Shown: piece by piece, positions 22,713 to 42,359 of the stretch | Layout of the letters: each line of letters opens with the position of its first letter | How positions within the stretch are numbered: position 1 is the stretch's first letter | DNA from: a virus | IMG/VR virus record: IMGVR_UViG_3300036819_000014 | Location: 1 to 50,072 of that record | Direction: 5' to 3' (one strand) | DNA: 50,072 nt | Made by a program: the position numbers and the translations under genes | Notes under the pieces: generated by a model | Seen by the model: only the letters and a program-made list of their open reading frames with translations | The model's database searches: none | Told to the model about the DNA's origin: nothing

Positions 22713-22740
22713 CTCGCGTGAATTTCAAGGACTATAATGA
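22713..22740 (+). promoter_or_regulatory. Early promoter-like element P1
   Basis: CTCGC at 22713-22717, exactly 15 nt, TATAAT at 22733-22738, then GA. One of six near-identical elements in the window (the others at 23201, 24441, 27543, 35192 and 42332). The -10 is a perfect bacterial consensus, while the upstream box is not a TTGACA-type -35. It precedes the small gene at 22764. Confidence 0.75.
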
Positions 22741-22763
22741 GATTCCACCGAAAGGAAAGATTC

Positions 22764-23069
22764 GTGTTTAGCCTGAAGCGTCAAGTGTCAGAGCCCACAG
22801 TCCTTGATAATGCAATCGACAATCTCGTACTCGAACTCGGAAACCAAACAGGTTACGACGATGAGAGCACTGCACTCTGTGCGAACGTGAAGACGCTCTG
22901 TGAAGCTAACGCTGCCCTAAAGGCCGCCAATAAGCCCAACACAGTCAGCGCTGACACGATCGTAACAGTCGCAGGCTCACTCGCCGGAATCCTCGCGGTT
23001 TTGAGCTATGAGCACGTGAATGTCGTTACATCCAAGGCAATGAGCTTTATCATCAAGCCGAAGATCTAA
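22764..23069 (+). CDS. Small membrane-associated phage protein
   Basis: 101 aa. GTG 22764 is chosen because AAAGGA lies 7 nt upstream and the earlier in-frame ATG (22737) is inside the -10 box of P1. The polar N-terminus (VLDNAIDNLVLELGNQTGYD) is followed by a hydrophobic helix near the C-terminus (TIVTVAGSLAGILAVLSYEH) and VTSKAMSFIIKPK. I recognise the type from other phages, without a known function. It is closed by the terminator at 23102. Confidence 0.65.
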   Translation: MFSLKRQVSEPTVLDNAIDNLVLELGNQTGYDDESTALCANVKTLCEANAALKAANKPNTVSADTIVTVAGSLAGILAVLSYEHVNVVTSKAMSFIIKPKI

Positions 23070-23101
23070 CAGATCAGACCTGAGAAGAGTCAAAATGGGA
23101 G

Positions 23102-23155
23102 TCCCGAGTGTTTAACTGAGCAAAAATCAAGTTGACACTCGGGATTTCTGTTTTT
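23102..23155 (+). terminator. Intrinsic terminator
   Basis: tcccgagtgt (23102-23111) pairs perfectly with acactcggga (23135-23144). The stem can extend inward through ttaact/agttga with a bulge, and is followed by a T-rich tail (tttctgttttt). It ends the P1 transcript, just before P2. Confidence 0.75.
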
Positions 23156-23200
23156 ACAGTTGGTATCAAAAAATTCCCGCGGGGTAAGATCCGGTAAAAC

Positions 23201-23228
23201 CTCGCAAGAAAAACATGGTGTATAATGA
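23201..23228 (+). promoter_or_regulatory. Early promoter-like element P2
   Basis: CTCGC 23201-23205, 15 nt, TATAAT 23221-23226, GA. It contains GTGTATAATG, an extended -10. It drives the membrane gene at 23267. Confidence 0.75.
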
Positions 23229-23266
23229 ACCTGAACCCAGTATTCATCAACGTAAGGATAAACGTA

Positions 23267-23446
23267 ATGACTGAAGAAGTTCAGAATGTCACCAAGCCCT
23301 CCACTAAGAGGGAGCTCACGGCGACCGTCGCATCGACGGCTGTCGGAGTTCTGCTTAGCATCGGCACGAGCATTCTGGTCAGCAAGGTCACCAAGCGAGT
23401 CCACGACAAGATCGCACCGGAAGTAGTTTCATCAACCGACGAATAG
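23267..23446 (+). CDS. Small membrane protein, 59 aa
   Basis: The ATG at 23267 is used because the earlier in-frame ATG (23225) lies within promoter P2. A polar start (TEEVQNVTKPSTKRELTATV) is followed by one transmembrane helix (about 20-37, STAVGVLLSIGTSILVSKV) and a charged C-terminus. It belongs to a run of short membrane proteins, each with its own promoter. Function unknown. Confidence 0.6.
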   Translation: MTEEVQNVTKPSTKRELTATVASTAVGVLLSIGTSILVSKVTKRVHDKIAPEVVSSTDE

Positions 23447-23453
23447 TCGAAAC

Positions 23454-23479
23454 GGGAGCCACACACGTGGTTTCCTTTT
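23454..23479 (+). terminator. Intrinsic terminator
   Basis: gggagccac, loop acac, gtggtttcc (9 bp including two G-T pairs), followed directly by TTTT. It lies between the 59-aa membrane gene and the DUF6353 gene. Confidence 0.65.
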
Positions 23480-23509
23480 AGCCGAAAACAGGATCGAGAC
23501 AAGGACAAT

Positions 23510-24292
23510 ATGTCTAGCTCTACTTGGCTGAATCACATCGGCCGAACACTTAAGACGAATACTCCGGCAATCCTGTCAGGCATCGCTGTCGCAGGCCTCA
23601 TCGGAACTGTCGTACTGGCGGTTAAGGCGACTCCGGATGCTTGTGAGGCAATCGCGATGGCTAAGGAAGACAAGGCCGTCGAGGAGAATACTGAAGTCCA
23701 CGACACCAACCTTACTCCGCAAGAGCTTGTTCAGACAACCTGGAAGTTCTACATTCCGACCGGCATCTCAGGTGCAGCATCGATTGCATGTATCGTCGGA
23801 GCTTGCACGGTCGGTTATCGTCAGAAGGCAGCTCTGGCTGGAGCGTATGCCCTGATCGACCAGAATTTCAGGATCTACAAGGAAAAAGTCATCGAGCAGA
23901 TCACGCCGCAGAAGGCTGACAAGATCGAAGACGAAGTCAACAAGGAGTACCTTCATCGTAGCTCCGGTGAAGGTAAAGAGGTCGTCATCATCGCGGGCGG
24001 CGACGTCCTCTGCATGGATAGCATCACAGGCCGGTACTTCCGCAGCACTCACGAAGCAGTTCGCAAGGCCGAGATCGATACAGACGCTGAGACTGTCAAG
24101 AACATGTACATGGATCTCAACTACTTCTACGAGCGCCTCGGCCTACCTAAGGTCGATATCGGTGAAGAGCTGGGATGGAATATCGACAATCGCATCAAGC
24201 TTCACTTCTCCAGTCTCCTCAACGAGTGCGACGTTCCGGTCTTCGTCGTCGGCTACGAAAATCCCCCGCGAATCGGATACGACAAGGTCTAG
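23510..24292 (+). CDS. DUF6353 family membrane protein, copy 1
   Basis: 260 aa. N-terminal APAIL-type motif (KTNTPAILSGIAVAGLIGTV), a transmembrane helix at ~17-38, a second one near 85-105 (YIPTGISGAASIACIVGACT), a helical segment (ALAGAYALIDQNFRIYKEKV), and a C-terminal soluble domain with YFYERLGLPKVDIGEELGWN and VPVFVVGYENPP. A paralogue lies at 27718. The family is common in phages and its function is unknown. A hydrophobic open frame continues in another frame past its stop. Confidence 0.75.
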   Translation: MSSSTWLNHIGRTLKTNTPAILSGIAVAGLIGTVVLAVKATPDACEAIAMAKEDKAVEENTEVHDTNLTPQELVQTTWKFYIPTGISGAASIACIVGACTVGYRQKAALAGAYALIDQNFRIYKEKVIEQITPQKADKIEDEVNKEYLHRSSGEGKEVVIIAGGDVLCMDSITGRYFRSTHEAVRKAEIDTDAETVKNMYMDLNYFYERLGLPKVDIGEELGWNIDNRIKLHFSSLLNECDVPVFVVGYENPPRIGYDKV

Positions 24293-24494
24293 CTGGATCG
24301 TCAGGCTATTTCCGAGACTGGGGACATTCCTGGTCTGGATCCTGGTACCATATCTCATCGCCGCCGGAGTCTTGATCGCTCATAAAAGGCTCCGCGGGTC
24401 ATCCAAGCCGAAGCGAGAAGCTCTTGCGATCGGGCGAGAGTTCGCAGACATTACAAGGCATATAATGAAACCCATTATGCCTAAGAGAGGTTAA
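24291..24494 (+). CDS. Membrane segment ORF with unresolved start
   Basis: This frame is open here and encodes a convincing transmembrane helix (LGTFLVWILVPYLIAAGVLI) and a basic C-terminus ending HIMKPIMPKRG, but no ATG, GTG or TTG lies before the helix; the first TTG is at 24372. Options are a rare start codon, a +1 frameshift at the end of the upstream DUF6353 gene (an AAGG precedes its TAG), or a damaged gene. Its 3' part contains promoter P3. Confidence 0.4.
   Translation, partial: SWIVRLFPRLGTFLVWILVPYLIAAGVLIAHKRLRGSSKPKREALAIGREFADITRHIMKPIMPKRG
24441..24468 (+). promoter_or_regulatory. Early promoter-like element P3
   Basis: TTCGC 24441-24445, 15 nt including ACAAGG, TATAAT 24461-24466, GA. 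It is embedded in the 3' end of the preceding open frame and drives the 55-aa gene at 24499. Confidence 0.7.
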
Positions 24495-24498
24495 TATC

Positions 24499-24666
24499 AT
24501 GCCTGAGAACGACACCAAGTCCTTCCTCAACGCTGGTACCGCTCAGACTGCTGGCGTCGCTGTCGCTGGCGGTGTTGCCGCTTCGATCGTCACGATCGCT
24601 GCCTTCACCGTCGCGTTCCGCATGCCCAAGCACCTGAAGAAGTACCTGCCGAAGAAGACTAACTAA
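24499..24666 (+). CDS. Highly expressed small membrane protein, 55 aa
   Basis: ATG 24499 with GAGAGG upstream. MPENDTKSFLNAGTAQTAGV leads into one Ala/Val/Gly-rich helix (about 16-40) and a basic end (MPKHLKKYLPKKTN). Codon choice is strongly biased to C-ending codons, as in the capsid and major tail genes, so expression is probably very high. It has its own promoter (P3) and is followed by a terminator-like hairpin. Function unknown. Confidence 0.65.
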   Translation: MPENDTKSFLNAGTAQTAGVAVAGGVAASIVTIAAFTVAFRMPKHLKKYLPKKTN

Positions 24667-24707
24667 GTCTTCAGACCTGTAACACCAAGCAAGTCAAGAC
24701 GGTTTAA

Positions 24708-24747
24708 AGCCTAAGGCCATTAGAGAAATCTAGTGGTCTCGGCTTTT
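24708..24747 (+). terminator. Probable intrinsic terminator
   Basis: agcc ... aggccatta, loop gagaaatc, tagtggtct ... ggct, with a 9-bp inner stem (two G-T pairs) and a 4-bp outer stem, followed by TTT. It ends the P3 transcript upstream of the 24772 gene. Confidence 0.55.
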
Positions 24748-24771
24748 CATATTTCACGAGGAGAGACACGT

Positions 24772-25215
24772 ATGAGCGAGCCTATCGCCTCCGTTTCTGG
24801 TTCAGGCGACGTTTCGGCACGGGCCGGCATGGCTGCAGTAGCATCTGCGCCGGCTAAGATCGTCGAGATCGACCAGCCCAAGCCGGAGACCGCGTATCGG
24901 CCTAGGCCTAACGGGCGTCCGAACAAGAGGCGTACTGACGATACCAAGTCGGGCTCGAACCGTCATATCAACCTGGCCAAGAAGCTCGTGGTCAACAACT
25001 ACAACAGTCACCACGACCCGAACGAGACGCCTCCGCTTACTGTGGAGCTCGTGTACGTCAGCACGTTCAATAAGGTTATAGATAACTGGAAGGCTATCGT
25101 CGAATCCACGACGGTCAAGGGTCTTCTGTACGAAGTGACCTATAACGCGGCTAGGTCGGAAGCGACCATCGCCATTTTCCAGAAGATCAACCAGGTCAAG
25201 ATCGCCGTCGATTAG
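24772..25215 (+). CDS. DUF6275 family protein, copy 1
   Basis: 147 aa, ATG after a GAGGAG site. Residues 1-~60 are a low-complexity Ala/Ser/Pro/Arg linker (PRPNGRPNKRRTDD). From ~65 the DUF6275-type domain follows (HINLAKKLVVNNYNSH, VELVYVSTFNKVIDNWKAIV, LLYEVTYNAARSE). A shorter copy without the linker is at 34420. Phage-restricted family of unknown function. Confidence 0.65.
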   Translation: MSEPIASVSGSGDVSARAGMAAVASAPAKIVEIDQPKPETAYRPRPNGRPNKRRTDDTKSGSNRHINLAKKLVVNNYNSHHDPNETPPLTVELVYVSTFNKVIDNWKAIVESTTVKGLLYEVTYNAARSEATIAIFQKINQVKIAVD

Positions 25216-25225
25216 GAAGAGCATC

Positions 25226-25771
25226 ATGCTTAAGAAGGCAATTAGCTTTTTGGATTTCGATGAGAATCCTCAGATCGAAGTTCATCATTTCAATCTTACG
25301 AGGGCTGAGCTTATCGAGCTTGAGCTTGAGGGAGACGGCGGAAGTCTTGGCGAATGGCTGAAGGCGGCTGCCAGGGACGAAGACAAGCGTAAGATCGTGA
25401 AGCTGTACAAGCTCTTCATTCTCAAGAGCTACGGAAGGCGCGAAGGCGACAAGTTCATCAAGTCGGATGAGCTCTCGAAGGAATTCGAGCATAGTCTGGC
25501 GTACGATGCACTGTTCACGGAAATGGCAACTGTCGAGCAGGCCAGCGTGGAATTCATGAAGGGCATCATCCCGTCGGATCTTCTGGAGAAGCTCGATGAT
25601 GGCGGAGCTCTCGAGACTGTGGATCTTCCTGCGGCATACAAGAAGCCTGAGGAAGACGAGCGGCCGGCCTGGATTCGTGAGGATCGTGAGCCGACTCGCA
25701 AGGAGCTCATAGCCATGTCGGATGAGCAGATCAAGGCCGCGTTCAAGAAGAAGAATCAGGTCAGTCTCTAA
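25226..25771 (+). CDS. Tail assembly chaperone-like protein outside the tail operon
   Basis: 181 aa. HHFNLTRAELIELELEGDGG, FILKSYGRREGDKFIKSDEL and EFMKGIIPSDLLEKL match a phage family often annotated as tail assembly chaperone and normally found between major tail and tape-measure genes. Here it lies ~14 kb away, among early or middle genes. The acidic C-terminus ends in DEQIKAAFKKK. The family call is from motif memory; the chaperone role at this locus is uncertain. Confidence 0.55.
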   Translation: MLKKAISFLDFDENPQIEVHHFNLTRAELIELELEGDGGSLGEWLKAAARDEDKRKIVKLYKLFILKSYGRREGDKFIKSDELSKEFEHSLAYDALFTEMATVEQASVEFMKGIIPSDLLEKLDDGGALETVDLPAAYKKPEEDERPAWIREDREPTRKELIAMSDEQIKAAFKKKNQVSL

Positions 25772-25812
25772 CCATCCATCAAGCGAATAGCCCGACTATT
25801 TTAGGGAATCGT

Positions 25813-26472
25813 ATGAGCGAAGAGATGATCGTCGACTTCGGTGGCGGCCGCTCTAGGAGTATGACAGTGGAATATCCAGGTAATTCCAACAAAGCCAAAG
25901 AGCAGAGTGAAAAGCCGGAAGTGAAGCCGGTTGTTCTGCAGCCTGTCACTCGGCGCAAAAAGTCTCTGCTCGACAGGATCAGCGGAAGTGTCGTCAATGA
26001 AGACACTCAGACCGTAGGACAGTATATTCTGTTCGATGTGATGATTCCGGCAGCGAAGAACATGATCAGTGATGCTGTTAGCCAGGGCATCGAGCGCATG
26101 CTCTTCGGTGAAGTTCGTTCCAGGTCATCCAGTCAGACCCGGCCGGGTTACACGAGCTATAATCGCATCTCAAGGGCTGCGCCGGCCCAGCAGTATGAGC
26201 GACGTGAGCTAGGACGTCAGCAGCGAGCTCGTCACGACTTCGATGACATCGTGCTGGCGAGTCGCGGTGAAGCAGAAGATGTTCTCGACGGATTGCGCGA
26301 TCTGGTCGACAAGTTCAGTCAGGCAACCGTGGCTGACTTGTACGATCTGGTCGGCATATCTGGCGAGTTCACCGATCACAAGTGGGGCTGGTTCGAACTC
26401 AAGAACGCCGGAGTTCGCAGTGTCCGCGGGGGCTACATGGTGCTGCTTCCTAAGCCAGAACCAATCGATTAG
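25813..26472 (+). CDS. Conserved phage hypothetical (VGQYILFDVMIPAAK type)
   Basis: 219 aa. A Pro/Lys-rich N-terminus, then VGQYILFDVMIPAAKNMISD and GIERMLFGEVRSRS, an Arg-rich middle, and a C-terminal domain with SRGEAEDVLDGLRDLVDKF, ATVADLYDLVGISGEFTD and NAGVRSVRGGYMVLLP. I recognise this layout from many siphophages, often next to the chaperone-like gene at 25226, but know no function. The middle amphipathic segment may bind membrane. Confidence 0.65.
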   Translation: MSEEMIVDFGGGRSRSMTVEYPGNSNKAKEQSEKPEVKPVVLQPVTRRKKSLLDRISGSVVNEDTQTVGQYILFDVMIPAAKNMISDAVSQGIERMLFGEVRSRSSSQTRPGYTSYNRISRAAPAQQYERRELGRQQRARHDFDDIVLASRGEAEDVLDGLRDLVDKFSQATVADLYDLVGISGEFTDHKWGWFELKNAGVRSVRGGYMVLLPKPEPID

Positions 26473-26489
26473 CTTGTAGCAACAACGCA

Positions 26490-26624
26490 ATGACAACAAA
26501 CCAAATGCGCGAGTGGCTCAGGACAGCATATTCAGGTAAGTCCTGGGCTGCTCGCGTTGCGCAAATGTCTGATCAGCAAATCTATGCCGTATATTCGCGG
26601 CTTAACTCAAGGAGATCAAAATGA
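26490..26624 (+). CDS. Small conserved phage protein, 44 aa
   Basis: ATG 26490, stop overlapping the next ATG (AAATGA). The product, MTTNQMREWLRTAYSG then KSWAARVAQMSDQQIYAVYS, is a compact two-helix protein of a kind common in phage early regions (a short basic W-K/R-VxxMSDxQVxAVYxR pattern). Function unknown. The stop-start coupling supports it being translated. Confidence 0.6.
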   Translation: MTTNQMREWLRTAYSGKSWAARVAQMSDQQIYAVYSRLNSRRSK

Positions 26625-27168: not shown

Positions 27169-27177
27169 GGATTTCGC

Positions 27178-27540: not shown

Positions 27541-27542
27541 AT

Positions 27543-27570
27543 CTCGCACGAAAAACAAGGACTTTAATGA
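27543..27570 (+). promoter_or_regulatory. Early promoter-like element P4
   Basis: CTCGC 27543-27547, 15 nt including CAAGG, TTTAAT 27563-27568 (one change from TATAAT), GA. It precedes a ~145-nt structured leader before the second DUF6353 gene. Confidence 0.7.
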
Positions 27571-27571
27571 A

Positions 27572-27690
27572 GTGAAGTCCGCTTCCAGATCCCGGTAACA
27601 AGGGGTCTTAGTTTATATTGAGGGGATTACCCAGAGTCCTGGTAATCTTAAACGACAGAAGCCGGCGCAGGCGCGTCAACTTGTGCCCTC
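27572..27690 (+). ncRNA. Structured leader RNA candidate
   Basis: Downstream of P4 and before the DUF6353 gene. Consecutive hairpins: gaag/cttc (27574-27585); agatccc/ggggtct (27587-27593 with 27602-27608, one G-T pair); gattacc/ggtaatc (27625-27631 with 27641-27647); ggcgca/tgtgcc (about 27663-27687). There is no convincing open frame. It could be a leader regulating the downstream gene or an independent small RNA. Confidence 0.45.
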
Positions 27691-27717
27691 TTAATCATCT
27701 ACCCAAGAAAAGGGAAA

Positions 27718-28611
27718 ATGAACCTCACAGGAATTGCGCAGAAGGTTCTCGGCTCGTCTGAGATCTATCTGCGAAAGAATGCGCCAGCGATTCTGACCGG
27801 CGTTGGTATCGCCGGCTTCGCTGCAACGACCGTTCTGGTCGGGCGCGCTGTTCTCAAATCTCAGGACGATCTTGACTCGGTGATGGTCAAGTCGAACCAC
27901 GCCAAGAAGAAGGAAATCACCGAAGAGTACCCGCAGGAAGCGAAGGTCAAGGAAGTCGGAGAGATCTGGGTTCGCGGTAGCATGCAGCTGGCCAAGCATT
28001 ACTGGCTGCCCGCAACTGTCGGCCTGTTCTCTGTCGGATGTATTCTCACGAGCCACGGAATGATGAAGAAGCGCAACGCTTCCATCGCCGCGGCTTATGT
28101 CGCACTCGACGCCGGTTTCAAGGCATATCGCAAGCGCGTCTCGGAAGAGCTCGGCGCCGAAAAGGAACTCGATTTCTATCGCGGTGTCAAGAGCCGCAAG
28201 GAGATCACGGATCTGTCCGAAGTGGACGGCGAAGGCACTGAGAAGTGCATCATCAACGAGTATGGCGAGCAGGTTCCGTCGCCGTATGCCCGGTTCTTCG
28301 ATGAGTCCTCGGTCATGTGGAGCAAGGATCCGGAGTACAATCTTCTGACTCTGCGGGCTCAGGAGCAGTGGGCAAATGACCGGCTCACTGCCAAGGGAAT
28401 CGTCTTCCTGAACGAAGTCTACGAAAACCTAGGTCTGGAGCGTTCTCAGGCCGGCCAGTCTGTTGGCTGGAAGAAGAAGAATCCTGGTGGCGACGGCTTC
28501 ATCAGCTTCGGCCTGTATGACATCTTCGATGAGTCGAGCCGGGCATTCATCAACGGTCTCGAACACACGGTTCTTCTCGATTTCAACGTCGATGGCGTTG
28601 TCACTCTCTGA
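27718..28611 (+). CDS. DUF6353 family membrane protein, copy 2
   Basis: 297 aa. Same architecture as the 23510 gene: RKNAPAILTGVGIAGFAATT, a second hydrophobic segment at about 98-118, then AAAYVALDAGFKAYRKRV, and a soluble C-terminal half with FLNEVYENLGLERSQAGQSV and a GLYDIFD segment. Codon use is biased to C-ending codons in places. Two copies in one genome suggest non-redundant membrane roles. Function unknown. Confidence 0.75.
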   Translation: MNLTGIAQKVLGSSEIYLRKNAPAILTGVGIAGFAATTVLVGRAVLKSQDDLDSVMVKSNHAKKKEITEEYPQEAKVKEVGEIWVRGSMQLAKHYWLPATVGLFSVGCILTSHGMMKKRNASIAAAYVALDAGFKAYRKRVSEELGAEKELDFYRGVKSRKEITDLSEVDGEGTEKCIINEYGEQVPSPYARFFDESSVMWSKDPEYNLLTLRAQEQWANDRLTAKGIVFLNEVYENLGLERSQAGQSVGWKKKNPGGDGFISFGLYDIFDESSRAFINGLEHTVLLDFNVDGVVTL

Positions 28612-29609: not shown

Positions 29610-30070
29610 TCAGTGGTCTGATGCACAATATCGAATTCAACGATAGCGTGCACAATGATGACAATCGTTCCGCGGAAGGCAGAGAGCTGCGATTTGAATT
29701 CATCGATGATACACAAGATCTCGGTGAATTCGACCCTGAAGAATGGGACTTCATATCTAGTCCAGCAACTCTCTTCGAGGTGCTCGTAGCTCTCTGCCGT
29801 CGGCTTGACTTCCAGGCTGAGCTTGGTGTCAGCAACTGGTACTACGTACTCATCCAGAATCTGGGCTTGAAACAGTACGCGGACAATGATGTGGCTTCTT
29901 CACAGAAGGGTTCCATCACTCGCAAGCTTAACAAGCTCAATAACAGGACATATTCCGCCGACGGTAGAGGTGGTTTGTTTCCGCTCAAAGACCCGCCAAA
30001 CGATCAGCGAACAGTCGAGCTATGGTACCAGATGTCGTACTACATTCTCGAGAACGATCTAATCCAATAA
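29513..30070 (+). CDS. Conserved phage hypothetical preceding the replication gene
   Basis: 185 aa, ATG after GAGAAAG. DEAYFEWLYDHAHPERRRGA, KLAYTIVSGLMHNIEF, DDNRSAEGRELRFEFIDDT, TLFEVLVALCRRLDF, NWYYVLIQNLGLKQYAD. I recognise this as a widespread phage protein of unknown role, often upstream of replication genes. Alpha-rich and acidic. Confidence 0.65.
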   Translation: MLQEPIDEAYFEWLYDHAHPERRRGAKLAYTIVSGLMHNIEFNDSVHNDDNRSAEGRELRFEFIDDTQDLGEFDPEEWDFISSPATLFEVLVALCRRLDFQAELGVSNWYYVLIQNLGLKQYADNDVASSQKGSITRKLNKLNNRTYSADGRGGLFPLKDPPNDQRTVELWYQMSYYILENDLIQ

Positions 30071-30088
30071 TAGATGGGAGGAGAACGC

Positions 30089-33000
30089 ATGGACTTTTAT
30101 CAGATCAAGGAACGCGAAACGAAGACTGGTCTAGAGGTATATCCTGACTTCGTGGTGAAACGTTCGAAAGATCTGATGGTACGTGGTCGTTCTTTCTACG
30201 CCATCTGGGATGAAGAGGCGGGACTATGGAGCACGGATGAGTACGAGGTTCAGCGTCTAGTCGATGCTGAGCTATATGCTCACGCAGATAAGCTCCAGAA
30301 GAATGGCGGTGATTCGGTATATGTCAAGAGTCTCGGTAGTTTCGGGTCACGAGCATGGTCGGATTACCGCAACTACATCAATCAACTATCAGATTCAAGT
30401 GTTCAGCTAGACGAGAGTCTTGCGTTCGCCAATACCGAAGTCAAGAAGACTGACTATGTCTCACGAAGGCTGCCATATTCTCTGGAAGCTGGAGACATCA
30501 GCGCTTATGATGAACTCATCGGGACGCTCTATATTCCGGAAGAGCGTGAGAAACTCGAATGGGCAACTGGCGCGATCGTTGCTGGCGACGCAAGACATAT
30601 TCAGAAGTTCATCGTACTGTATGGCGAGGCTGGCACAGGAAAGTCGACGTTCCTGAACATCTTGCAGCAGCTTTTCGATGGGTATTGCACCAACTTCGAA
30701 GCCAAAGCTTTGACAGGTGCGAACAACGCATTCTCGACTGAAGTATTCAAGTCGAACCCGCTAGTAGCAATTCAGCACGACGGTGATCTTAGCAAGATCG
30801 AAGACAACACGAAACTGAACTCGATTATCAGTCACGAGCTGATGACGATGAACGAGAAGTACAAGCCGTCATATTCGGCGAGGATTAACTCGTTCTTGTT
30901 CATGGGTACAAACAAGCCAGTGCGGATCACGGACAGCAAGTCGGGCATTATTCGAAGGCTTATCGATGTGCATCCGTCAGGAGATCGTGTAACACCGAAG
31001 CGATATTCCACACTGGTTGCGCAGATTGATTTCGAAATCGGTGCTATTGCCCAGCATTGTCTTGACGTTTACCGAAGCTTGGGAAAGAACTATTTCTCAG
31101 GCTATAGGCCAATCGAGATGATGGTACAGACTGATGTGTTCTACAACTTCATGCTGCAGTACTATGACGTCTTCAAGGCTTACGATGGCGTCTCGCTTAG
31201 TCAGGCTTACAAGCTTTACAAGCAGTATTGCGAAGAAGCTCAGATAGAATACAAGCTTCCGCGGCATAGGTTCTCGTCTGAGATCCGGAACTATTTCGAA
31301 GGATTCAGCGACAGAACTACAATCGAGGGTGAGGAAGTCAGAAGCTGGTATCATGGCTTCAAGACTGACAAATTCAAGACAGTTGAACTGATTCTGGAGG
31401 CGCCAGTCACGCTAGTCATGGACGAGTATGAATCCATATTTGACACTGTGTGTGCTGAACAACCGGCGCAGTATGCCAATGAGGATGGCACTCCGAATCA
31501 GAAGTGGGCTAACATAACTACAAAGCTGAAGGATCTTGACACGACGCAAATGCATTATGTCAAGCCAGGACTTCAGCATATCGTTATCGACTTTGATCTG
31601 ACAGACGATCAGGGTAAAAAGAGTCTTGAGAGGAATCTGGAGGCAGCCAGCGGCTGGCCGAAGACGTATGCTGAGTTTAGTAAAAGCGGTTCCGGCGTTC
31701 ATTTGCATTATATTTACGACGGTGACGTTACAAAGCTGAGCAGCATATTCAGCGAAGGCATAGAGATCAAGGTGTTCTCAGGCGATGCCTCACTGCGCAG
31801 AAAGCTTTCGAAGTGTAACAATATTCCAATAGGAAGGATCAACGGCAGCCTTCCTTTGAAGGAGAAGCGCGTGATCGATGCCGACACGATCAAAAGTGAG
31901 AAGGGATTGCGCACTCTTATTCTGCGTAATCTTCGTAAGGAGATTCATCCTGGAACTCGGCCGAGTATCCAGTTCATCCACAAGATCCTCGATGACGCAA
32001 GCAAATCTGGGCTGATCTACGATATCAGTGACTTGCGAAGCAGCATTCTGGCATTCGCGAACAACTCCACCAACCATGCGATGTACTGCATCAAGATGGT
32101 TATGGACATGAAGTTCAGCAGCGAGCCGAAGGAAATTGCGGAAAAGCCCCCGGAGCCAAAAGACAATCGACTAGTCTTCTTCGACGTCGAAATATTTCCG
32201 AATCTTTTCGGAGTCTGCTGGAAATTCGAAGGCGATACGAATGTCGTCAAGATGCTAAATCCATCGCCGCAAGCTATCGAGAATCTTATCAAGCTGAAGC
32301 TTGTCGGATTCAACAATCGAAAGTACGACAATCATATTCTGTACGGCCGGATGATGGGTCTGGACAATCAGAAGTTGTACGAGCTTTCGCAGAAGATCAT
32401 CAACGGCGGAACTGCCCAGATGTTTGGCGAGGCGTACAATCTGTCGTATGCTGATATCTACGATTTCAGCAGTGTTAAGCAAGGTCTGAAGAAGTTCCAG
32501 ATCGAGCTTGGGCTTAATCACAAAGAGCTCGGACTGCCTTGGGATCAGCCCGTGCCCGACGACATGATCGAAGAAGTGCTTAACTACTGTGCGAACGACG
32601 TGATCACTACGGAGCAGGTCTTCGATGATCGCAAGCAGGACTTCGTCGCACGTCAGATTCTGGCCGAATTGTCAGGCCTAACTGTTAACGACACAACGCA
32701 GAAGCATACTGCCAAGATCATATTTGGCACAGATAAGAAGCCGCAGGAAAAGTTCAAGTACACGAATCTTGCGGATCGCTTCCCTGGCTATATTTACGAT
32801 TTCGGGAAGTCCACTTACAAGGGTGAGGAAACGGGTGAAGGCGGCTATGTTTATGCTGAACCTGGTATGTATACCAATGTCGCGGTTCTCGATGTGGCTT
32901 CGATGCATCCTACATCAATTGAGATCCTTGACCTTTTCGGTCCGTACACTCAGAATTTCAGCGATCTCAAGAGTGCGCGTATCGCGATCAAGCGGCGTGA

Positions 33001-33826
33001 CTTTGAGAGTGCGCGTAAGATGCTTGGCGGAATCCTGGGACCGTATCTTGGCTCCGATGACGACGCGAAGGCACTTTCTTACGCGCTTAAGATCGTCATC
33101 AACATCGTTTACGGGCTAACTTCGGCCTCGTTCGACAACCCATTCCACGATCCGAGAAACAAGGACAACATCGTCGCTAAGCGCGGTGCCTTGTTCATGA
33201 TCGACCTGAAGGAAGCCGTGCAGCACAAGGGCTTTAAGGTCGTTCACATTAAAACGGACTCGATCAAGATTCCTGACGCAACTCCGGAGATTATCCAGTA
33301 TGTGATGGATTTCGGAAAGGAATACGGTTACGAGTTTGAGCACGAGGATACTTACGAGAAGTTCTGTCTCGTGAATGATGCCGTGTACATCGCCAAGAAG
33401 ATGTCTGATCCCTGGGCTGCTGACGCCGAAGTCGACAATGCCAAGTTGTGGACTGCCACAGGGGCGCAGTTCCAGCACCCGCACGTCTTCAAGACGCTGT
33501 TCAGTAAAGAACCACTAACATTCCAGGACCACGTCGAAACTAAGACGGTTAAGACTGCGCTATATTTGCAGTTTGGCGAAAACGAGCCGCACTTCGTCGG
33601 AAAGGCCGGAGCATTTGTCCCGGTCATTAATGGCGGAAAGCTGCTCCGAGTAGCAACTGACGGAAAATTCCACTCGGCTTCCGGTGCCAAGAACTATCTC
33701 TGGCATGAAGCTGACGTGACGAAGAGCTCGAATCTCGAGATAGACAAGTCGTATTTCGTTAAACTTGTCGACGATGCAAAAGACAACATATCCAATTACG
33801 GCGACTTCGAATGGTTCGCCAGTTAG
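30089..33826 (+). CDS. Fused SF3 helicase, AEP primase and family B DNA polymerase
   Basis: 1245 aa. ATG 30089 has GGGAGGAG at normal spacing; ATG 30074 precedes that site. SF3/D5-like helicase: Walker A GEAGTGKST (~180), VAIQHDGDL (~225), LFMGTNKP (~270). AEP-like primase: VIDFDL (~498), SGSGVHLHY (~533), GIEIKVF (~557). Family B polymerase: ExoI FFDVEIF (~697), ExoII FNNRKYDNHIL (~741), ExoIII YCANDV (~832), motif A LDVASMHPTSI (~934), motif B KIVINIVYGL (~1000), motif C IKTDSIKI (~1054). It could unwind, prime and copy DNA alone. All catalytic motifs appear intact; AEP is the least certain module. Confidence 0.85.
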   Translation: MDFYQIKERETKTGLEVYPDFVVKRSKDLMVRGRSFYAIWDEEAGLWSTDEYEVQRLVDAELYAHADKLQKNGGDSVYVKSLGSFGSRAWSDYRNYINQLSDSSVQLDESLAFANTEVKKTDYVSRRLPYSLEAGDISAYDELIGTLYIPEEREKLEWATGAIVAGDARHIQKFIVLYGEAGTGKSTFLNILQQLFDGYCTNFEAKALTGANNAFSTEVFKSNPLVAIQHDGDLSKIEDNTKLNSIISHELMTMNEKYKPSYSARINSFLFMGTNKPVRITDSKSGIIRRLIDVHPSGDRVTPKRYSTLVAQIDFEIGAIAQHCLDVYRSLGKNYFSGYRPIEMMVQTDVFYNFMLQYYDVFKAYDGVSLSQAYKLYKQYCEEAQIEYKLPRHRFSSEIRNYFEGFSDRTTIEGEEVRSWYHGFKTDKFKTVELILEAPVTLVMDEYESIFDTVCAEQPAQYANEDGTPNQKWANITTKLKDLDTTQMHYVKPGLQHIVIDFDLTDDQGKKSLERNLEAASGWPKTYAEFSKSGSGVHLHYIYDGDVTKLSSIFSEGIEIKVFSGDASLRRKLSKCNNIPIGRINGSLPLKEKRVIDADTIKSEKGLRTLILRNLRKEIHPGTRPSIQFIHKILDDASKSGLIYDISDLRSSILAFANNSTNHAMYCIKMVMDMKFSSEPKEIAEKPPEPKDNRLVFFDVEIFPNLFGVCWKFEGDTNVVKMLNPSPQAIENLIKLKLVGFNNRKYDNHILYGRMMGLDNQKLYELSQKIINGGTAQMFGEAYNLSYADIYDFSSVKQGLKKFQIELGLNHKELGLPWDQPVPDDMIEEVLNYCANDVITTEQVFDDRKQDFVARQILAELSGLTVNDTTQKHTAKIIFGTDKKPQEKFKYTNLADRFPGYIYDFGKSTYKGEETGEGGYVYAEPGMYTNVAVLDVASMHPTSIEILDLFGPYTQNFSDLKSARIAIKRRDFESARKMLGGILGPYLGSDDDAKALSYALKIVINIVYGLTSASFDNPFHDPRNKDNIVAKRGALFMIDLKEAVQHKGFKVVHIKTDSIKIPDATPEIIQYVMDFGKEYGYEFEHEDTYEKFCLVNDAVYIAKKMSDPWAADAEVDNAKLWTATGAQFQHPHVFKTLFSKEPLTFQDHVETKTVKTALYLQFGENEPHFVGKAGAFVPVINGGKLLRVATDGKFHSASGAKNYLWHEADVTKSSNLEIDKSYFVKLVDDAKDNISNYGDFEWFAS

Positions 33827-35191: not shown

Positions 35192-35219
35192 CTCGCGAGA
35201 AACGCAAGGTGTATAATGA
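35192..35219 (+). promoter_or_regulatory. Early promoter-like element P5
   Basis: CTCGC 35192-35196, 15 nt, TATAAT 35212-35217, then GAGAGATA. The sequence from TATAATGAGAGATA is shared with P6. It precedes a structured RNA region and then the 35342 gene. Confidence 0.75.
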
Positions 35220-35300
35220 GAGATAATCGACTCGGAGCCTATAGCAGGCACCAGTCTATCGGACCACTGTGTACCGGTAGGAGTCGACTATCTCTCACTA
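35213..35300 (+). ncRNA. Structured RNA element with GAGAGATA closing arms
   Basis: Arms 35218-35233 and 35281-35296 are complementary over 16 bp with one A-C mismatch, and pairing can extend outward into the TATAAT box (second A-C mismatch). Inside lie gcct/aggc (loop atagc) and a cagt/actg or gtc/gac hairpin (loop containing ctatcgg). An A-run (35311-35318) follows, then GGGAGA before the next gene. If transcription starts ~7 nt after the -10, the RNA keeps 10 bp of the closing stem. Shares promoter and arms with the element at 42353. Confidence 0.5.
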
Positions 35301-38234: not shown

Positions 38235-38407
38235 ATCACAACTGCCTTGAGAATGTGCGGCCAAAGTTCAGTGATGCTCAAATCACTGTCAAGGTCTACA
38301 ACGTCCTGCGTCGTACAGGCCTGACGGCCAATCAGACTCTCGACGCCATCAACGAGATGCAGAAGTCGGACATCATATTCGGTGAACTGCATCTCAACGG
38401 CAACTGA
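38231..38407 (+). CDS. Single-repeat homologue of the 37509 protein, 58 aa
   Basis: GTG 38231 (GTGA overlap), stop overlapping the next ATG (TGATG). QITVKVYNVLRRTGLTANQT then LDAINEMQKSDIIFGELHL matches the repeat of the 37509 protein. It is probably a small helical domain that arose by duplication. Function unknown. Confidence 0.55.
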   Translation: MNHNCLENVRPKFSDAQITVKVYNVLRRTGLTANQTLDAINEMQKSDIIFGELHLNGN

Positions 38408-38640
38408 TGGTTCAGTATAAAAACGCTCGTACAGTCGTCCTCAGGAACTGGGTCAACAAGGACTTGAGGACGACTGTACAGGCTGCTGAAGTAACCGAAG
38501 CGAATATCGAAACAATCCGGACTGCTTGGCACAAGCCTGATGCGCAAGTAGGCCAGTATCTGGTCAAGGCAAACATGAAGTACAAGATCGTGGATGCTGG
38601 CCATTTCCTCAAAAAATACCGTCGTCCAATCGGAATGTAA
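38407..38640 (+). CDS. Basic small protein carrying an internal 15-bp inverted repeat in its DNA
   Basis: 77 aa, TGATG overlap. MVQYKNARTVVLRNWVNKDL, TTVQAAEVTEANIETIRTAW, KYKIVDAGHFLKKYRRPIGM. Basic, probably nucleic-acid-binding. The coding DNA at 38429-38479 holds a perfect 15-bp inverted repeat. Function unknown. Confidence 0.5.
   Translation: MVQYKNARTVVLRNWVNKDLRTTVQAAEVTEANIETIRTAWHKPDAQVGQYLVKANMKYKIVDAGHFLKKYRRPIGM
38429..38479 (+). repeat. Perfect 15-bp inverted repeat inside a coding region
   Basis: gtacagtcgtcctca (38429-38443) is exactly complementary to 38465-38479, with a 21-nt loop. It lies just after the start codon region of the 77-aa gene. A hairpin this strong could control translation or mark a protein-binding site. 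Confidence 0.6.
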
Positions 38641-38654
38641 GAGGAGTTATATTT

Positions 38655-39116
38655 ATGCCGTCCAATCTCGAAAAGCATGCTGAGTACGAGCTCAAGCTAC
38701 TCGATGAAGAGCCTGAGATCGTCGAGATGTACATGAATGTTGTCCGTGCGTTCAGCGCATTCGGCCACTCTGGCGGATCGGCAATGGTCGCCATCCCGGT
38801 CATCACGAGGCTTCTCTCGTACGAGAACCTGTCGCCACTGACTGTCGAGAAGGACGAGTGGATCTATCACGATCAGCGTCATGGCAACGTCTGGCAGAGC
38901 ACGCGAAACTCGAAGATGTTCTCGACTGACGGCGGAAAGACATATTTCAACGTCGATGAAGGTCTCCTGGAGTCCGGTGAACGTCGTCTATATTACTCGA
39001 CGGACCTGGAGGAGGCGAACTGGATCTTCAAGATTGGCGAAGATCTCGTCGAGATTACGCATGCTCAGATGGCCGAGATCCGTGCGCTGGTTGATTACCA
39101 GAATCGTCTCGACTAA
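38655..39116 (+). CDS. Conserved phage hypothetical, 153 aa
   Basis: ATG after GAGGAGTTATATTT. The N-terminal helical region (EKHAEYELKLLDEEPEIVEM) ends by residue ~60. The C-terminal beta domain has DEWIYHDQRHGNVWQSTRNS, KMFSTDGGKTYFNVDEGL and MAEIRALVDYQNRL, similar to small beta-rich phage proteins that carry a W-Q-x-x-R-x-S...F motif. Function unknown. Confidence 0.6.
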   Translation: MPSNLEKHAEYELKLLDEEPEIVEMYMNVVRAFSAFGHSGGSAMVAIPVITRLLSYENLSPLTVEKDEWIYHDQRHGNVWQSTRNSKMFSTDGGKTYFNVDEGLLESGERRLYYSTDLEEANWIFKIGEDLVEITHAQMAEIRALVDYQNRLD

Positions 39117-39301
39117 TGAAGATTCCCATCGTGCTTCAACACAAGGTGACCGGTTATACCAAGATCGGTGAACTCAACGTCGACGAGAACGGCAAGATCG
39201 AAGGAAACATCGACGATTTCTACGGCCAAATGATAAACAAGAATGGCCACCAGAAGTTCGCCGTGGAAATCTATCCGATCCCGGATCACCCGGCAACATG
39301 A
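39116..39301 (+). CDS. Small beta-rich protein, 61 aa
   Basis: ATG 39116 overlaps the previous stop (TAATG). MKIPIVLQHKVTGYTKIGEL then NVDENGKIEGNI, and QKFAVEIYPIPDHPAT. Small, soluble and probably a beta-barrel. The next gene starts in its stop (ATGA). Function unknown. Confidence 0.5.
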   Translation: MKIPIVLQHKVTGYTKIGELNVDENGKIEGNIDDFYGQMINKNGHQKFAVEIYPIPDHPAT

Positions 39302-39474
39302 ACGACGCAATTCTGCAGCATCTCAGGAACACCGCATTTCTCCAGCTAGTCAGGGAGATGCGATGGAAATCTGATGATGCTGCGTTGGTCGTAGGACTAT
39401 CGCGAGCGGATGCTACAAGGCTCGCCGGTGTAATAGCGGCCGAAAGAAAGATCGACCCGATCGAGTTGTTCTAA
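39298..39474 (+). CDS. Putative HTH mini-protein, 58 aa
   Basis: ATGA overlap with the previous gene. VREMRWKSDDAALVVGLSRA then DATRLAGVIAAERKIDPIEL reads as a compact helix-turn-helix. It could be a transcriptional regulator. It ends just before the cloverleaf-like RNA region. HTH assignment by eye only. Confidence 0.45.
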   Translation: MNDAILQHLRNTAFLQLVREMRWKSDDAALVVGLSRADATRLAGVIAAERKIDPIELF

Positions 39475-39510
39475 CTCGTCTGAGCGAGTATAAACAGGCA
39501 CTTAGGCTCA

Positions 39511-39650
39511 GAGCGGCTGGTGGTGGCGCAATCTGGTAAATCCGTCGCAGTCATATCCTGGAGGGATGACGGTAACTCCAGCTTCTTACCGAGAGCCTTA
39601 AACTCAATGTGATAAGGCCACCAGCATGGCAGTAGATTCCGCTGCCTATA
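39511..39650 (+). ncRNA. Cloverleaf-like structured RNA candidate
   Basis: Closing stem gctggtgg/ccaccagc (39516-39523 with 39618-39625) surrounds four arms: ggcg/cgtc (39525-39528 with 39543-39546, loop with TGGTA), gtcat/atgac (39550-39554 with 39566-39570), ggtaa/ttacc (39571-39575 with 39586-39590) and gcctta/taaggc (39595-39600 with 39613-39618). A ggcag/ctgcc hairpin follows (about 39628-39646), just before the next ribosome site. It has tRNA-like topology but no T-loop consensus, so it is not a canonical tRNA. No open frame of note. Confidence 0.45.
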
Positions 39651-39663
39651 TCAAGGAGACACC

Positions 39664-39909
39664 ATGGGTCTTGCAGCAAACGTTTCGCAGTCCGTGCACG
39701 ATGAGCTCGCTGCGGAGGCCAAGAAGCACCCCGGCTTCCAGACCTTCCTGAACGACATGCAGAAGCTTGCCGAGAACGTCTGGCACAAGGTTCGCGTTCA
39801 GGCTTCCGACGATGCCAAGGAAGCTGTGACTGAGGCAGAGGGTGACGCGGTAGCTGCTGTCACTCCCGAGGCTCAGACGGTTTCCACGTCGGAGACGCCG
39901 GGAGCCTAG
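39664..39909 (+). CDS. Highly expressed small helical protein, 81 aa
   Basis: ATG after AAGGAGACACC. SQSVHDELAAEAKKHPGFQT then FLNDMQKLAENVWHKVRVQA, and an acidic Thr/Ala/Glu tail. Codon choice strongly favours C-ending codons, so expression is likely high. Flanked by two structured RNA elements. Function unknown. Confidence 0.6.
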   Translation: MGLAANVSQSVHDELAAEAKKHPGFQTFLNDMQKLAENVWHKVRVQASDDAKEAVTEAEGDAVAAVTPEAQTVSTSETPGA

Positions 39910-39917
39910 AACTCTTA

Positions 39918-39981
39918 GGTAACCTGCGGTTCGGTCTGAGCTTTCCTGAGGGGGTTTTCTCAGACCGGATCGGAAGTTATC
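39918..39981 (+). ncRNA. Duplicated structured 3'-UTR RNA element, copy 1
   Basis: Begins 9 nt after a stop codon. Outer helix ggtaac/gttatc (39918-39923 with 39976-39981), conserved internal loop (ctgcgg / cggaa), inner helix cggtctgag/ctcagaccg (39932-39940 with 39959-39967), apical loop with TTCCTG. Copy 2 at 40491-40551 keeps the loops but changes helix bases compatibly. Possibly an mRNA-stabilising or protein-binding element. Confidence 0.6.
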
Positions 39982-40013
39982 GTGACTTCTGAACACAACC
40001 GAGGAGAATCACA

Positions 40014-40487
40014 ATGGGTGGATGTCTCAAGGTAGCCGGCGCTGTTGTTGTCGGCGTTATCGCGCTCGTGGTCATCATCGTCATCGCTACGTCTGGCGGT
40101 AGCAGCACAAGTACTCCGTCAGTCTCAGTCAAGCCGGCCGTTACACACATCAGCGGTCCGGTGCACGCTTCTGCTACTTCGGCTCCGAAGCCTACGGTGA
40201 ACGATGAGGCTGTCACGGATGCCAAGAACTACCTCTCGACTGAGCCTGGCTTCAGCGAGGGCGGTCTTGAGCAGCAGCTCGAGTACGACAAGTTCAGCCC
40301 GTCTGATTCGGACAAGGCTGTCGAGTCGCTCAACGTGGACTGGAACGCTCAGGCAGCTGACGACGCTCGCAACTACGTACAGGAAGAAGGCAGCTTCAGC
40401 ATGAGCAGCCTCGAACAGCAGCTGGAGTTCGACAAGTTCACGTCGGCTCAGGCTGACTACGGTGCGAACGCGGCGCTTGCAAGCTAG
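40014..40487 (+). CDS. Ltp-like membrane-anchored protein (superinfection-exclusion type)
   Basis: 157 aa. An N-terminal hydrophobic anchor (CLKVAGAVVVGVIALVVIIV), a Ser/Thr/Pro linker, then two tandem Ltp-type domains: DAKNYLSTEPGFSEGGLEQQ then LEYDKFSPSD, and DARNYVQEEGSFSMSSLEQQ then LEFDKFTSAQ. Ltp of Streptococcus phage TP-J34 blocks injection by incoming phages through such domains; the same role is a reasonable inference. A Cys near the N-terminus hints at lipidation but no lipobox is clear. Confidence 0.75.
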   Translation: MGGCLKVAGAVVVGVIALVVIIVIATSGGSSTSTPSVSVKPAVTHISGPVHASATSAPKPTVNDEAVTDAKNYLSTEPGFSEGGLEQQLEYDKFSPSDSDKAVESLNVDWNAQAADDARNYVQEEGSFSMSSLEQQLEFDKFTSAQADYGANAALAS

Positions 40488-40489
40488 AT

Positions 40490-40552
40490 AGTTAGCCTGC
40501 GGCTGGGTCTGAGATTCCTGCGGTGTCTCTCAGGCTCGGCCGGAAGTTAACT
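40490..40552 (+). ncRNA. Duplicated structured 3'-UTR RNA element, copy 2
   Basis: Begins 2 nt after the Ltp-like stop. Outer helix gttagc/gttaac (40491-40496 with 40546-40551), same internal-loop sequence (ctgcgg / cggaa), inner helix gggtctgag/ctcaggctc (40505-40513 with 40529-40537, G-T pairs), apical TTCCTG. Same architecture as copy 1 with compatible base changes. Confidence 0.6.
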
Positions 40553-40572
40553 CATAAACGTAACGGAGTCAT

Positions 40573-40710
40573 ATGGTTAAGCTCTGTGATCACAAGTGGA
40601 GTGCGGCAGTTATGACCGACGAAAACGATGACACGTATACTCTGGAGAAATACTGCACTAAAGGATGCGGAGCTACGTCAACTTCGGTTAAGCCCAAGCG
40701 GAAGAAGTAA
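40573..40710 (+). CDS. Zinc-binding mini-protein A, 45 aa
   Basis: ATG 40573. MVKLCDHKWSAAVMTDENDD then TYTLEKYCTKGCGATSTSVK: C-x-H ... C-x3-C spacing typical of a tiny zinc ribbon. It is clearly paralogous to the 40841 product (CDHKW/CQHKW, KGCGA/NGCGA). Follows RNA element copy 2. Function unknown. Confidence 0.55.
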   Translation: MVKLCDHKWSAAVMTDENDDTYTLEKYCTKGCGATSTSVKPKRKK

Positions 40711-40712
40711 TC

Positions 40713-40844
40713 ATGGCTGTCTGCAATAACTGCAACGATCTCGGTGAAGTTGCTAATCCAGAATACCCCGCCGGAAGTTCGGCAGTGACTATCACCTGCC
40801 CAGTCTGTCACGGCAACAGTACTTCAGGGAGGTTATATTCATGA
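40713..40844 (+). CDS. Zinc-knuckle mini-protein B, 43 aa
   Basis: ATG 40713. MAVCNNCNDLGEVANPEYPA then GSSAVTITCPVCHGNSTSGR: paired CxxC (CNNC and CPVC) as in DnaJ-type or rubredoxin-like zinc knuckles. The stop overlaps the next ATG. Function unknown. Confidence 0.55.
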   Translation: MAVCNNCNDLGEVANPEYPAGSSAVTITCPVCHGNSTSGRLYS

Positions 40845-40978
40845 CCGAAATCTGCCAGCACAAGTGGGGCACTCGTGAGAAGATCGACGAAGATGAGCAG
40901 TGTATCGTCTACGAGGCTACGTGCAAGAATGGTTGCGGTGCCATCGAGACGTTCGTCGAGCCCAAGAACGGTAACTGA
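40841..40978 (+). CDS. Zinc-binding mini-protein C, 45 aa
   Basis: ATG 40841 in GGAGGTTATATTCATG. MTEICQHKWGTREKIDEDEQ then CIVYEATCKNGCGAIETFVE, a paralogue of the 40573 product. Third in a tandem run of cysteine mini-proteins. Function unknown. Confidence 0.55.
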   Translation: MTEICQHKWGTREKIDEDEQCIVYEATCKNGCGAIETFVEPKNGN

Positions 40979-40979
40979 C

Positions 40980-41291
40980 GTGCGCGCAATCAAACTTATC
41001 CCGAAGAACTTCGATAAGATCATCGAAGAGTATGAAGATCAGCGTCCTGAGACTCTGGAATGGATACTCGCGATCTACGAAGGTGTCGAAAATACCTCCG
41101 CCTTCATTACTTCGTCATATCTGTACACGAATCGCCAGTCAGAGCCAGAAGCTCCAATCGTGCTTAGCCAAGACGAACTTATCGCCTGGTGCTACTTCAA
41201 CCACGAAGGCAACACCGATACTGACTGGTTCGATATTTCGCCGCTCTGTGAGATTACTGAGTGGTACGACATCGCCGAAGACCAATTCTAG
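40980..41291 (+). CDS. Acidic hypothetical protein, 103 aa
   Basis: GTG 40980, 1 nt after the previous stop. MRAIKLIPKNFDKIIEEYED, RPETLEWILAIYEG and TDTDWFDISPLCEITEWYDI. Acidic and alpha/beta; no motif recognised. Translation is coupled to the mini-protein run. Confidence 0.5.
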   Translation: MRAIKLIPKNFDKIIEEYEDQRPETLEWILAIYEGVENTSAFITSSYLYTNRQSEPEAPIVLSQDELIAWCYFNHEGNTDTDWFDISPLCEITEWYDIAEDQF

Positions 41292-41303
41292 CCTGGAGGA
41301 AAC

Positions 41304-41900
41304 ATGTTCGGAAAGATCATCAAGATCATCCTGCCCGTCGCCGGTTTCGCCATATTCGCTAAGGCGGCCTTCGAGTTTAAGCAGGAGCGAGAGGCTCAGT
41401 ACTTCGCAGACCGGGCACTAGACTCTCGCATCACCGAGCTCACCAGCGAATTCCAGCGAGTGGAGTCAGGTCGCGGTCTCGACCAGGACAACCTCACGGC
41501 GTGGAAGCTTGAGCTGGAGCACTACGCCACTGAGAATTTCGAAGACCTGAAGATCAGTACAGCAGTCGCTGTCAAGCAGGCTCAGGCCGAAGTAAGGAAG
41601 GCTACGAAGCTGCACAAGGAAGTCTCGGAGAATCTTGTCGAGAAGTACAACGACAATCTGCGTCTGGTCAATGCACACGAAACTGCTCTTCGAGACGTTT
41701 ACAAGACTCTCAAAAACCAGCAGGATCATCTTTCGCTACTTACCGAGAGGCTCGAAAAGATCGAGAAGTTCGATCGGGACGCATTTCTCGAGATCTTCAG
41801 TGAAGCACGAAAGAAGATCGAGCAGCTGGACAAAGAGATGGACCGCGTTCGCGCTGAGCCTCAGAACGAGAACACTCCGCCGGAGAATTCGCAGGAATAG
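41304..41900 (+). CDS. Membrane-anchored coiled-coil protein
   Basis: 198 aa with CTGGAGGAA upstream. N-terminal hydrophobic anchor (about 5-22, IIKIILPVAGFAIFAKAAF), then almost continuous coiled coil (VAVKQAQAEVRKATKLHKEV; LLTERLEKIEKFDRDAFLEI; KKIEQLDKEMDRVRA). Cytoplasmic rod tethered to the membrane. It could act as a scaffold for replication or lysis control; no family known. Confidence 0.6.
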   Translation: MFGKIIKIILPVAGFAIFAKAAFEFKQEREAQYFADRALDSRITELTSEFQRVESGRGLDQDNLTAWKLELEHYATENFEDLKISTAVAVKQAQAEVRKATKLHKEVSENLVEKYNDNLRLVNAHETALRDVYKTLKNQQDHLSLLTERLEKIEKFDRDAFLEIFSEARKKIEQLDKEMDRVRAEPQNENTPPENSQE

Positions 41901-41963
41901 CAAATCGCATAACGAGAGACTATTCTGTCTTTCATATTCTCGACAACTGTTATCGGGAGAGTC

Positions 41964-42344
41964 ATGAACGAGAAGATCGAAAAGATCAAGAAGCACATCG
42001 TTGAGAACAAGCTTGTCTATATCCTCGGCGCAGGCGCGTTCGCTGCGGGAACTGGCGTGGGACTCACGATCGGAATTCGCCAGATCGTGGTGACTGATGT
42101 CGCGAATGTCAAGTGGCATTCTCCGACTATAAACAACATCATCGCTTCGGTGGAACGGCGCGGTCATCCTGGAAACGTCATCCGCTGCAATGAGACTGGT
42201 GAGATATTTGCTAGCCAGAACCATGCGGCGAAGCTGATGGGCCTCAATCCCGGAAGTCTTTCAAGTCACCTTAGCGGTAAGTACGACCACGCGAATGGCT
42301 ACACCTTCGAGAAGCTGGGCGAAGCCGTAACCTCGCAAGAGTAA
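41964..42344 (+). CDS. Membrane protein with NUMOD1-like DNA-binding domain
   Basis: 126 aa. Basic start, a transmembrane helix at about 17-40 (LVYILGAGAFAAGTGVGLTI), then a C-terminal HTH-type module: VIRCNETGEIFASQNHAAKL, MGLNPGSLSSHLSGKYDHAN, GYTFEKLG. The latter fits NUMOD1/IENR-like modules that bind DNA in homing endonucleases. Here there is no nuclease, so the protein may tether phage DNA to the membrane. Confidence 0.65.
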   Translation: MNEKIEKIKKHIVENKLVYILGAGAFAAGTGVGLTIGIRQIVVTDVANVKWHSPTINNIIASVERRGHPGNVIRCNETGEIFASQNHAAKLMGLNPGSLSSHLSGKYDHANGYTFEKLGEAVTSQE

Positions 42345-42359
42345 CAAGCACTATAATGA
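42332..42359 (+). promoter_or_regulatory. Early promoter-like element P6
   Basis: CTCGC 42332-42336, 15 nt, TATAAT 42352-42357, then GAGAGATA as in P5. It overlaps the 3' end of the NUMOD1-like gene and precedes the triple-hairpin RNA. Confidence 0.75.

Follow-up and report, generated by a model that had tools for sequence, protein, structure and literature searches.

A repeated promoter-like element shared by phages of soil bacteria is probably read by their own two-barrel RNA polymerase

Which enzyme would start transcription at the short element that recurs along one half of the viral genome IMGVR_UViG_3300036819_000014? The window, by which we mean the whole stretch of 50,072 nt that was analyzed (positions 1 to 50,072 of this IMG/VR record), had been described as carrying six promoter-like copies of a CTCGC box followed by a −10 box, from which transcripts would begin 6–8 nt downstream. 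A pattern scan of both strands found four exact copies of CTCGC-N15-TATAATGA (elements 1, 2, 5, and 6 in table 1) together with a TTCGC variant (element 3) and a TTTAATGA variant (element 4). All six lie on the + strand, when the reversed control pattern has no match in the window. With three mismatches allowed, the pattern alone is not significant in the window (10 matches found vs. 12.8 expected). A position matrix derived solely from 66 sites in other phages (polymerase-encoding IMG/VR records plus the phages Bilo and Secretariat, the window being excluded) ranks the same six elements first, at 39.8, 29.1, 28.1, 20.5, 17.9, and 13.3 bits, ahead of a degenerate seventh element (12.9 bits) and of position 29919 (8.6 bits, within a gene), and with this matrix nothing exceeded 8 bits in twenty 50-kb second-order Markov controls. 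The repetition of the element six times is thereby confirmed, as is the spacer, which is exactly 15 nt long and holds an ACAAGG patch at a constant position. A sigma-70 scan found no TTGACA-like hexamer at 16–18 nt for any element, and sigma-70 scans of the right arm of the genome gave matches at or below chance level, in agreement with the original prediction, which did not take the upstream box for a sigma-70 −35. The predicted location in the nonstructural half was also borne out, no element falling within the structural genes. Each element is followed by a gene (elements 1–3) or by a predicted structured RNA (elements 4–6).

Table 1. Coordinates of the candidate promoter elements and associated features in the window
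Feature	Coordinates	Strand	Basis and context
Candidate promoter element 1, CTCGC-N15-TATAATGA	22713-22740	+	Pattern, matrix; SD 13 nt downstream, gene 22767-23069
Terminator-like hairpin CCCGAGTGT/ACACTCGGG, then T-run	23103-23155	+	Adjoins element 2 upstream; sequence reading, missed by a consensus scanner
Candidate promoter element 2	23201-23228	+	Pattern, matrix; SD 27 nt downstream, gene 23267-23446 (59 aa)
Candidate promoter element 3, TTCGC variant	24441-24468	+	Top matrix score; SD 20 nt downstream, gene 24499-24666 (55 aa)
Candidate promoter element 4, TTTAATGA variant	27543-27570	+	Pattern, matrix; predicted structured RNA next
Predicted structured RNA after element 4	27569-27700	+	Fold z −2.8; upstream of gene 27718-28611
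DNA primase/polymerase, PHROG 4210	30074-33826	+	Lineage marker/confounder; co-occurs equally with the motif
Candidate promoter element 5	35192-35219	+	Pattern, matrix; predicted structured RNA next
Predicted structured RNA, outer stem from the base after TATAAT	35218-35296	+	Fold z −4.8
Degenerate seventh element, CATAACGA	41888-41915	+	12.9 bits, controls ≤8; upstream of gene 41964-42344
Candidate promoter element 6	42332-42359	+	Pattern, matrix; predicted structured RNA next
Predicted structured RNA, multi-branched, outer 10-bp stem GAGAGAUAGC/GCUAUCUCUC right after TATAAT	42358-42457	+	z −6.3, stem statistics
Single-subunit two-barrel RNA polymerase, PHROG 4291, 894 aa	47087-49771	+	Profile, DFDGD 503-507, helix-turn-helix at both ends, structural model

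In its full form, the element reads CTCGC-A-N6-ACAnG-nCC-TATAATGA-GACCCC. At least 119 stretches match CTCGC-N8-CAnG-N3-TATAATGA in IMG/VR, and among the matches listed, 173 unique copies give the consensus CTCGC-A/G-n-R-AAWW-ACAnG-nCC-TATAATGA-GACCCC, usually followed by a Shine–Dalgarno (SD) sequence and a start codon; as this set was picked with a perfect TATAATGA, the conservation of those letters in it arises by selection. When the hexamer is left free, TATAAT is found in 34 and TATAGT in 12 of 56 actinophage copies. The 44 motif-selected IMG/VR records of at least 25 kb all carry the motif on one strand, in 2–21 copies each (a single copy in one record), vs. 0–1 matches to the reversed control pattern, and 230 of 50,697 phage records hold it. 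Across five genomes, for which element positions in Bilo, Secretariat, Lactococcus phage P092, and Faecalibacterium phage FP_oengus were included, none of 44 copies lies among the structural genes and most sit in the interval that separates the tail/lysis genes from the DNA polymerase, a placement that fits early/middle genes, as for gp64 of Thermus phage P23-45. To judge from their sequence features, these elements are start-of-transcription signals common to hundreds of phages of soil bacteria.

The surroundings of the copies strongly support a promoter function, because what is expected of a promoter on either side far exceeds the controls: an SD with an open reading frame lies 10–23 nt downstream of 268 of 383 copies from many phages (70%, vs. 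4% in controls), and 30% of the copies are preceded by T-runs (vs. 3%). That the elements would rather be binding sites of a replication, partition, or termination protein is very improbable in view of this fixed SD distance, of the terminator-like nature of the upstream T-runs, and of the GACCCC conserved after the element, even if such sites would also be repeated, clustered, and in one orientation. Equally hard to sustain, and in fact scarcely credible, is the idea that CAAGG is itself an SD for the ATG within TATAATGA, in the manner of the start-associated sequences of cluster K mycobacteriophages. AAGG does stand at SD distance from this ATG, and the frame stays open for at least 35 codons in 82 of 311 copies; we rejected this reading since the median open frame is only 12 codons, and 76% of copies have a second SD and start downstream. 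Besides, the SD found ∼13 nt downstream of TATAAT does not overlap the motif, as it would in a cluster K start-associated sequence, and three of the copies in the window precede predicted structured RNAs.

A candidate reader of these elements is encoded by the last large gene of the window, whose product matches PHROG 4291 over its full length (E 0, residues 4–886). It contains DFDGD, the DxDGD catalytic motif of two-barrel polymerases (QDE-1, YonO, and multi-subunit enzymes), within an LSGADFDGD block, and this motif is invariant in 38 sequences. Sequence searches of the PDB returned helix-turn-helix and repeat proteins only, and a profile comparison with YonO of SPbeta gave no significant match. 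An AlphaFold2 model (pLDDT 78.5, pTM 0.57) matches QDE-1 (Foldseek E 1e-8; Z ∼18 over ∼370 residues), the Thermus phage RNA polymerases 8f5m (P74 gp62) and 8f72 (gp64), both at Z 14, and, among weaker Foldseek hits, 6vr4, such that the modeled chain adopts the double-barrel catalytic fold. Helix-turn-helix matches were found by sequence scans at both ends; within the N-terminal 230 residues, which have weak winged-helix matches (PadR, TFIIE-like, Z ∼6), residues 116–204 look weakly winged-helix-like. This polymerase is encoded by about 250 sequenced phages, with hosts that include Arthrobacter, Gordonia, Streptomyces, Rhodococcus, Microbacterium, and Lactococcus, where it is often annotated just as a helix-turn-helix protein or as an "RNA-dependent RNA polymerase." Its disordered N-terminus bears a conserved tag, LxHYGVxRxSGRYPWGSG, that shares LxHYG(V/I) with HYGVKGMKWGVRR tags on head-region proteins of the same genomes. 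In the window, this HYG/HFG-type tag is seen as MHYGVLRRSGRYPWGSG at the polymerase N-terminus (47114-47164) and as HFGVKGMKWGRR in a head-region protein (3020-3060, within 2693-3364), and the same pair is present in Bilo, Secretariat, and FP_oengus.

The motif and PHROG 4291 travel together, nearly every phage record with the motif encoding this polymerase, whose gene sits toward the genome end. In the collection of 50,697 phage records, those that carry the motif and those that encode the polymerase are equal in number for phages of Arthrobacter (95), Gordonia (55), Streptomyces (54), Rhodococcus (4), and Microbacterium (4) and for records named Siphovirus (12), when Curtobacterium phages number 4 with the motif and 7 with the polymerase. 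Of 16 IMG/VR records selected for the polymerase, 15 match the motif pattern at two mismatches or fewer, in nearly all cases on the same strand as the polymerase; the sixteenth is a 15-kb fragment, and the record G011 has weak matches only. Conversely, the polymerase was found in 35 of the 44 motif-selected records. In six of the nine remaining records, the DNA polymerase is near a contig end, which would place the RNA polymerase gene beyond the contig; the last three are fragments in which neither gene is present. This association is nonetheless lineage-wide and is not proof: because the DNA polymerase (PHROG 4210) marks the same phages, the RNA polymerase is not singled out, and the records without a DNA polymerase match, being fragments or too few, do not break this confounding.

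The element has diverged, yet stays co-linear, in relatives that encode the polymerase but lack the CTCGC-TATAATGA form. Within their early intergenic regions, P092 has a variant, TTTTACAnACCCTATAAT, in ten + strand copies, and FP_oengus has CGCG-N7-CA-N5-CTTTATG in 13 copies (1.4 expected), where CTTTATG replaces TATAATG; the spacing from CA to the −10-like box is kept in both, and that from CGC to CA also in FP_oengus. In the G013 record, the hexamer takes the forms TTTAAT and TGTAAT. Most actinophage copies have the A at −11 and the T at −7 of a sigma −10, when the co-linear FP_oengus copies carry T at position −11 and most G013 copies carry T or G there. Sigma-A needs the A at −11, and its loss in repeated copies is not expected of a sigma-A promoter; its absence from these Firmicutes-infecting relatives argues against sigma-A as the reader. 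G011 and a further relative, G012, have few clear copies, and de novo word counts revealed no clear variant in them. In P092 (L125, 20080-20180) and FP_oengus (L126, 2930-2990), variant elements were seen by eye directly before tRNA-like sequences.

On this question of the reader, we favor, at a probability of roughly two in three, a phage-specific promoter class recognized by the phage's own single-chain, QDE-1-like polymerase, although the actinophage hexamer, as a good sigma −10, speaks against it. The same TATAAT match is all that recommends unaided host sigma-A promoters with a strong −10 and accidental or structural upstream boxes, an improbable reading given that TCGC and ACA match the −10 in conservation (1.8–2.0 bits in the matrix, the letters being partly preset by the choice of sites) and recur in very diverse phages, that no TG extension is consistently present, and that the −10 is lost in relatives. 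Host sigma-A assisted by a phage activator that would bind the CTCGC/ACAnG boxes in place of a −35, following the logic of T4 MotA, is a more serious possibility, if still an unlikely one. It would account for the TATAAT consensus in actinophages and for a box centered near −30 without a −35, and a MEME motif of phage Vardy has been published as sigma-70 (PMC9671010). Yet it agrees poorly with the altered −10 of the co-linear FP_oengus and G013 elements, and, apart from the polymerase, no candidate activator for the −30 box was found among the proteins scanned, nor, by annotation, any other conserved transcription protein among the genes common to Bilo, Secretariat, P092, and FP_oengus. It is further disfavored by RNA stems and SDs that begin before the sigma start site would.

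These stems and SDs bear on where the RNA would begin. Outer stems starting right after TATAAT, as predicted after elements 5 and 6, also occur in five other loci (L007, L026, L050, L089, and L125), and in five copies the SD lies 0–6 nt after TATAAT. With a start 7 nt further on, both would be truncated, which favors a start next to TATAAT. Over 529 copies, stems of at least 10 pairs at offsets −5 to +3 number 22 of 38, vs. 9 of 22 in the background; in some copies they extend as far as 5 nt ahead of the proposed start, and stems also arise by chance at an appreciable rate, such that the signal at TATAAT is real but not sharp, and does not pin the start. Taken together, these features support transcripts that begin near the base following TATAAT, even if read-through from upstream could also supply the structured RNAs. 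Thus, the promoter part of the original prediction gains strong support from the flanking SDs, reading frames, and T-runs, when its other part, TATAAT as a host −10 with starts 6–8 nt beyond, does not, and the host-sigma picture is probably wrong. As for the RNAs themselves, the one at 42358-42457 has an identical GUUAA loop in three hairpins and no Rfam family; among the loci compared, no relatives were found for it or for that at 35218, and weak ones only for that at 27569. A recurring RNA of the approximate form GAAGnnnTAAGACACGAATGTGTA follows the element in other phages (L002 near 1469, L008 near 8596, L089 near 10134, and L100 near 1187) and looks like a family of its own. A Pistol ribozyme (Rfam RF02679, 42.6 bits) lies at 39474-39528, right after a small gene, and is shared by 9 of the 29 records of related phages that were searched, which makes it a recurrent feature of the lineage. 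Between the helicase and HNH genes, a large imperfect inverted repeat (45421-45597; two 80-nt arms 17 nt apart) is possibly a replication origin or a regulatory site.

If the phage polymerase were the reader, its helix-turn-helix and winged-helix-like terminal domains would bind both the CTCGC box and the ACAnG patch, melting and initiation would take place over the TATAATGA stretch, and RNA would start with the base that follows TATAAT or one close to it, to give either a short leader with an SD ∼13 nt on or a structured RNA. The elements would then drive the early/middle (nonstructural) genes, and the structural genes, which have no element, would depend on the host polymerase or on read-through. 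More speculatively, the polymerase might be packaged in the virion and injected, which would make the elements immediate-early promoters independent of host transcription; this is rather unlikely, but if true, the shared LxHYG(V/I) tag could be a common packaging or processing signal.

A defined promoter would make start-site finding by YonO/QDE-1-type single-chain polymerases directly testable, in phages that can be grown without difficulty, and the polymerase might be developed into a small transcription tool whose promoter recognition is built in. Among known systems, the MotA-dependent middle promoters of T4 combine a box near −30 with a consensus −10 and no −35, a layout like that of the present elements, whose −10 is, however, not conserved across the lineage. 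The 50-bp and 43-bp MEME motifs of the cluster DJ Gordonia phages Vardy and Conley, with TATAAT and in intergenic, mid-genome positions, are very probably the same element in relatives; five copies in each phage were published as sigma-70 promoters, within single genomes and with no tie to a polymerase or to other lineages (PMC9671010, PMC10868162). No report of the wider motif family or of its link to a polymerase was found in the literature searched, where subscription journals are thinly covered, and both appear new. The virion RNA polymerase gp66 of the crAss-like phage phi14:2 (6vr4) is of the two-barrel class too, but has 2166 residues and another architecture. YonO of SPbeta, with DNDGD, is likewise a phage single-chain RNA polymerase and a distant kin of multi-subunit enzymes, but it serves late genes from one start with an undefined promoter (PMC5467207), and inspection by eye of the sequence upstream of yonK revealed no such element. 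A further parallel is the non-virion RNA polymerase gp64 of P23-45, whose promoters were mapped by cappable-seq and ChIP (PMC10770324), when the present elements are known from sequence. The solved chains of this class, P74 gp62 and gp64, are shorter (∼590 residues vs. 894 here) and the promoter motif of gp64 is described as GC-rich, but gp64 is single-chain and two-barrel, of the same fold class (Z 14), and, much as proposed here, it has its own promoter motif in early genes and leaves late genes to the host (PMC10770324).
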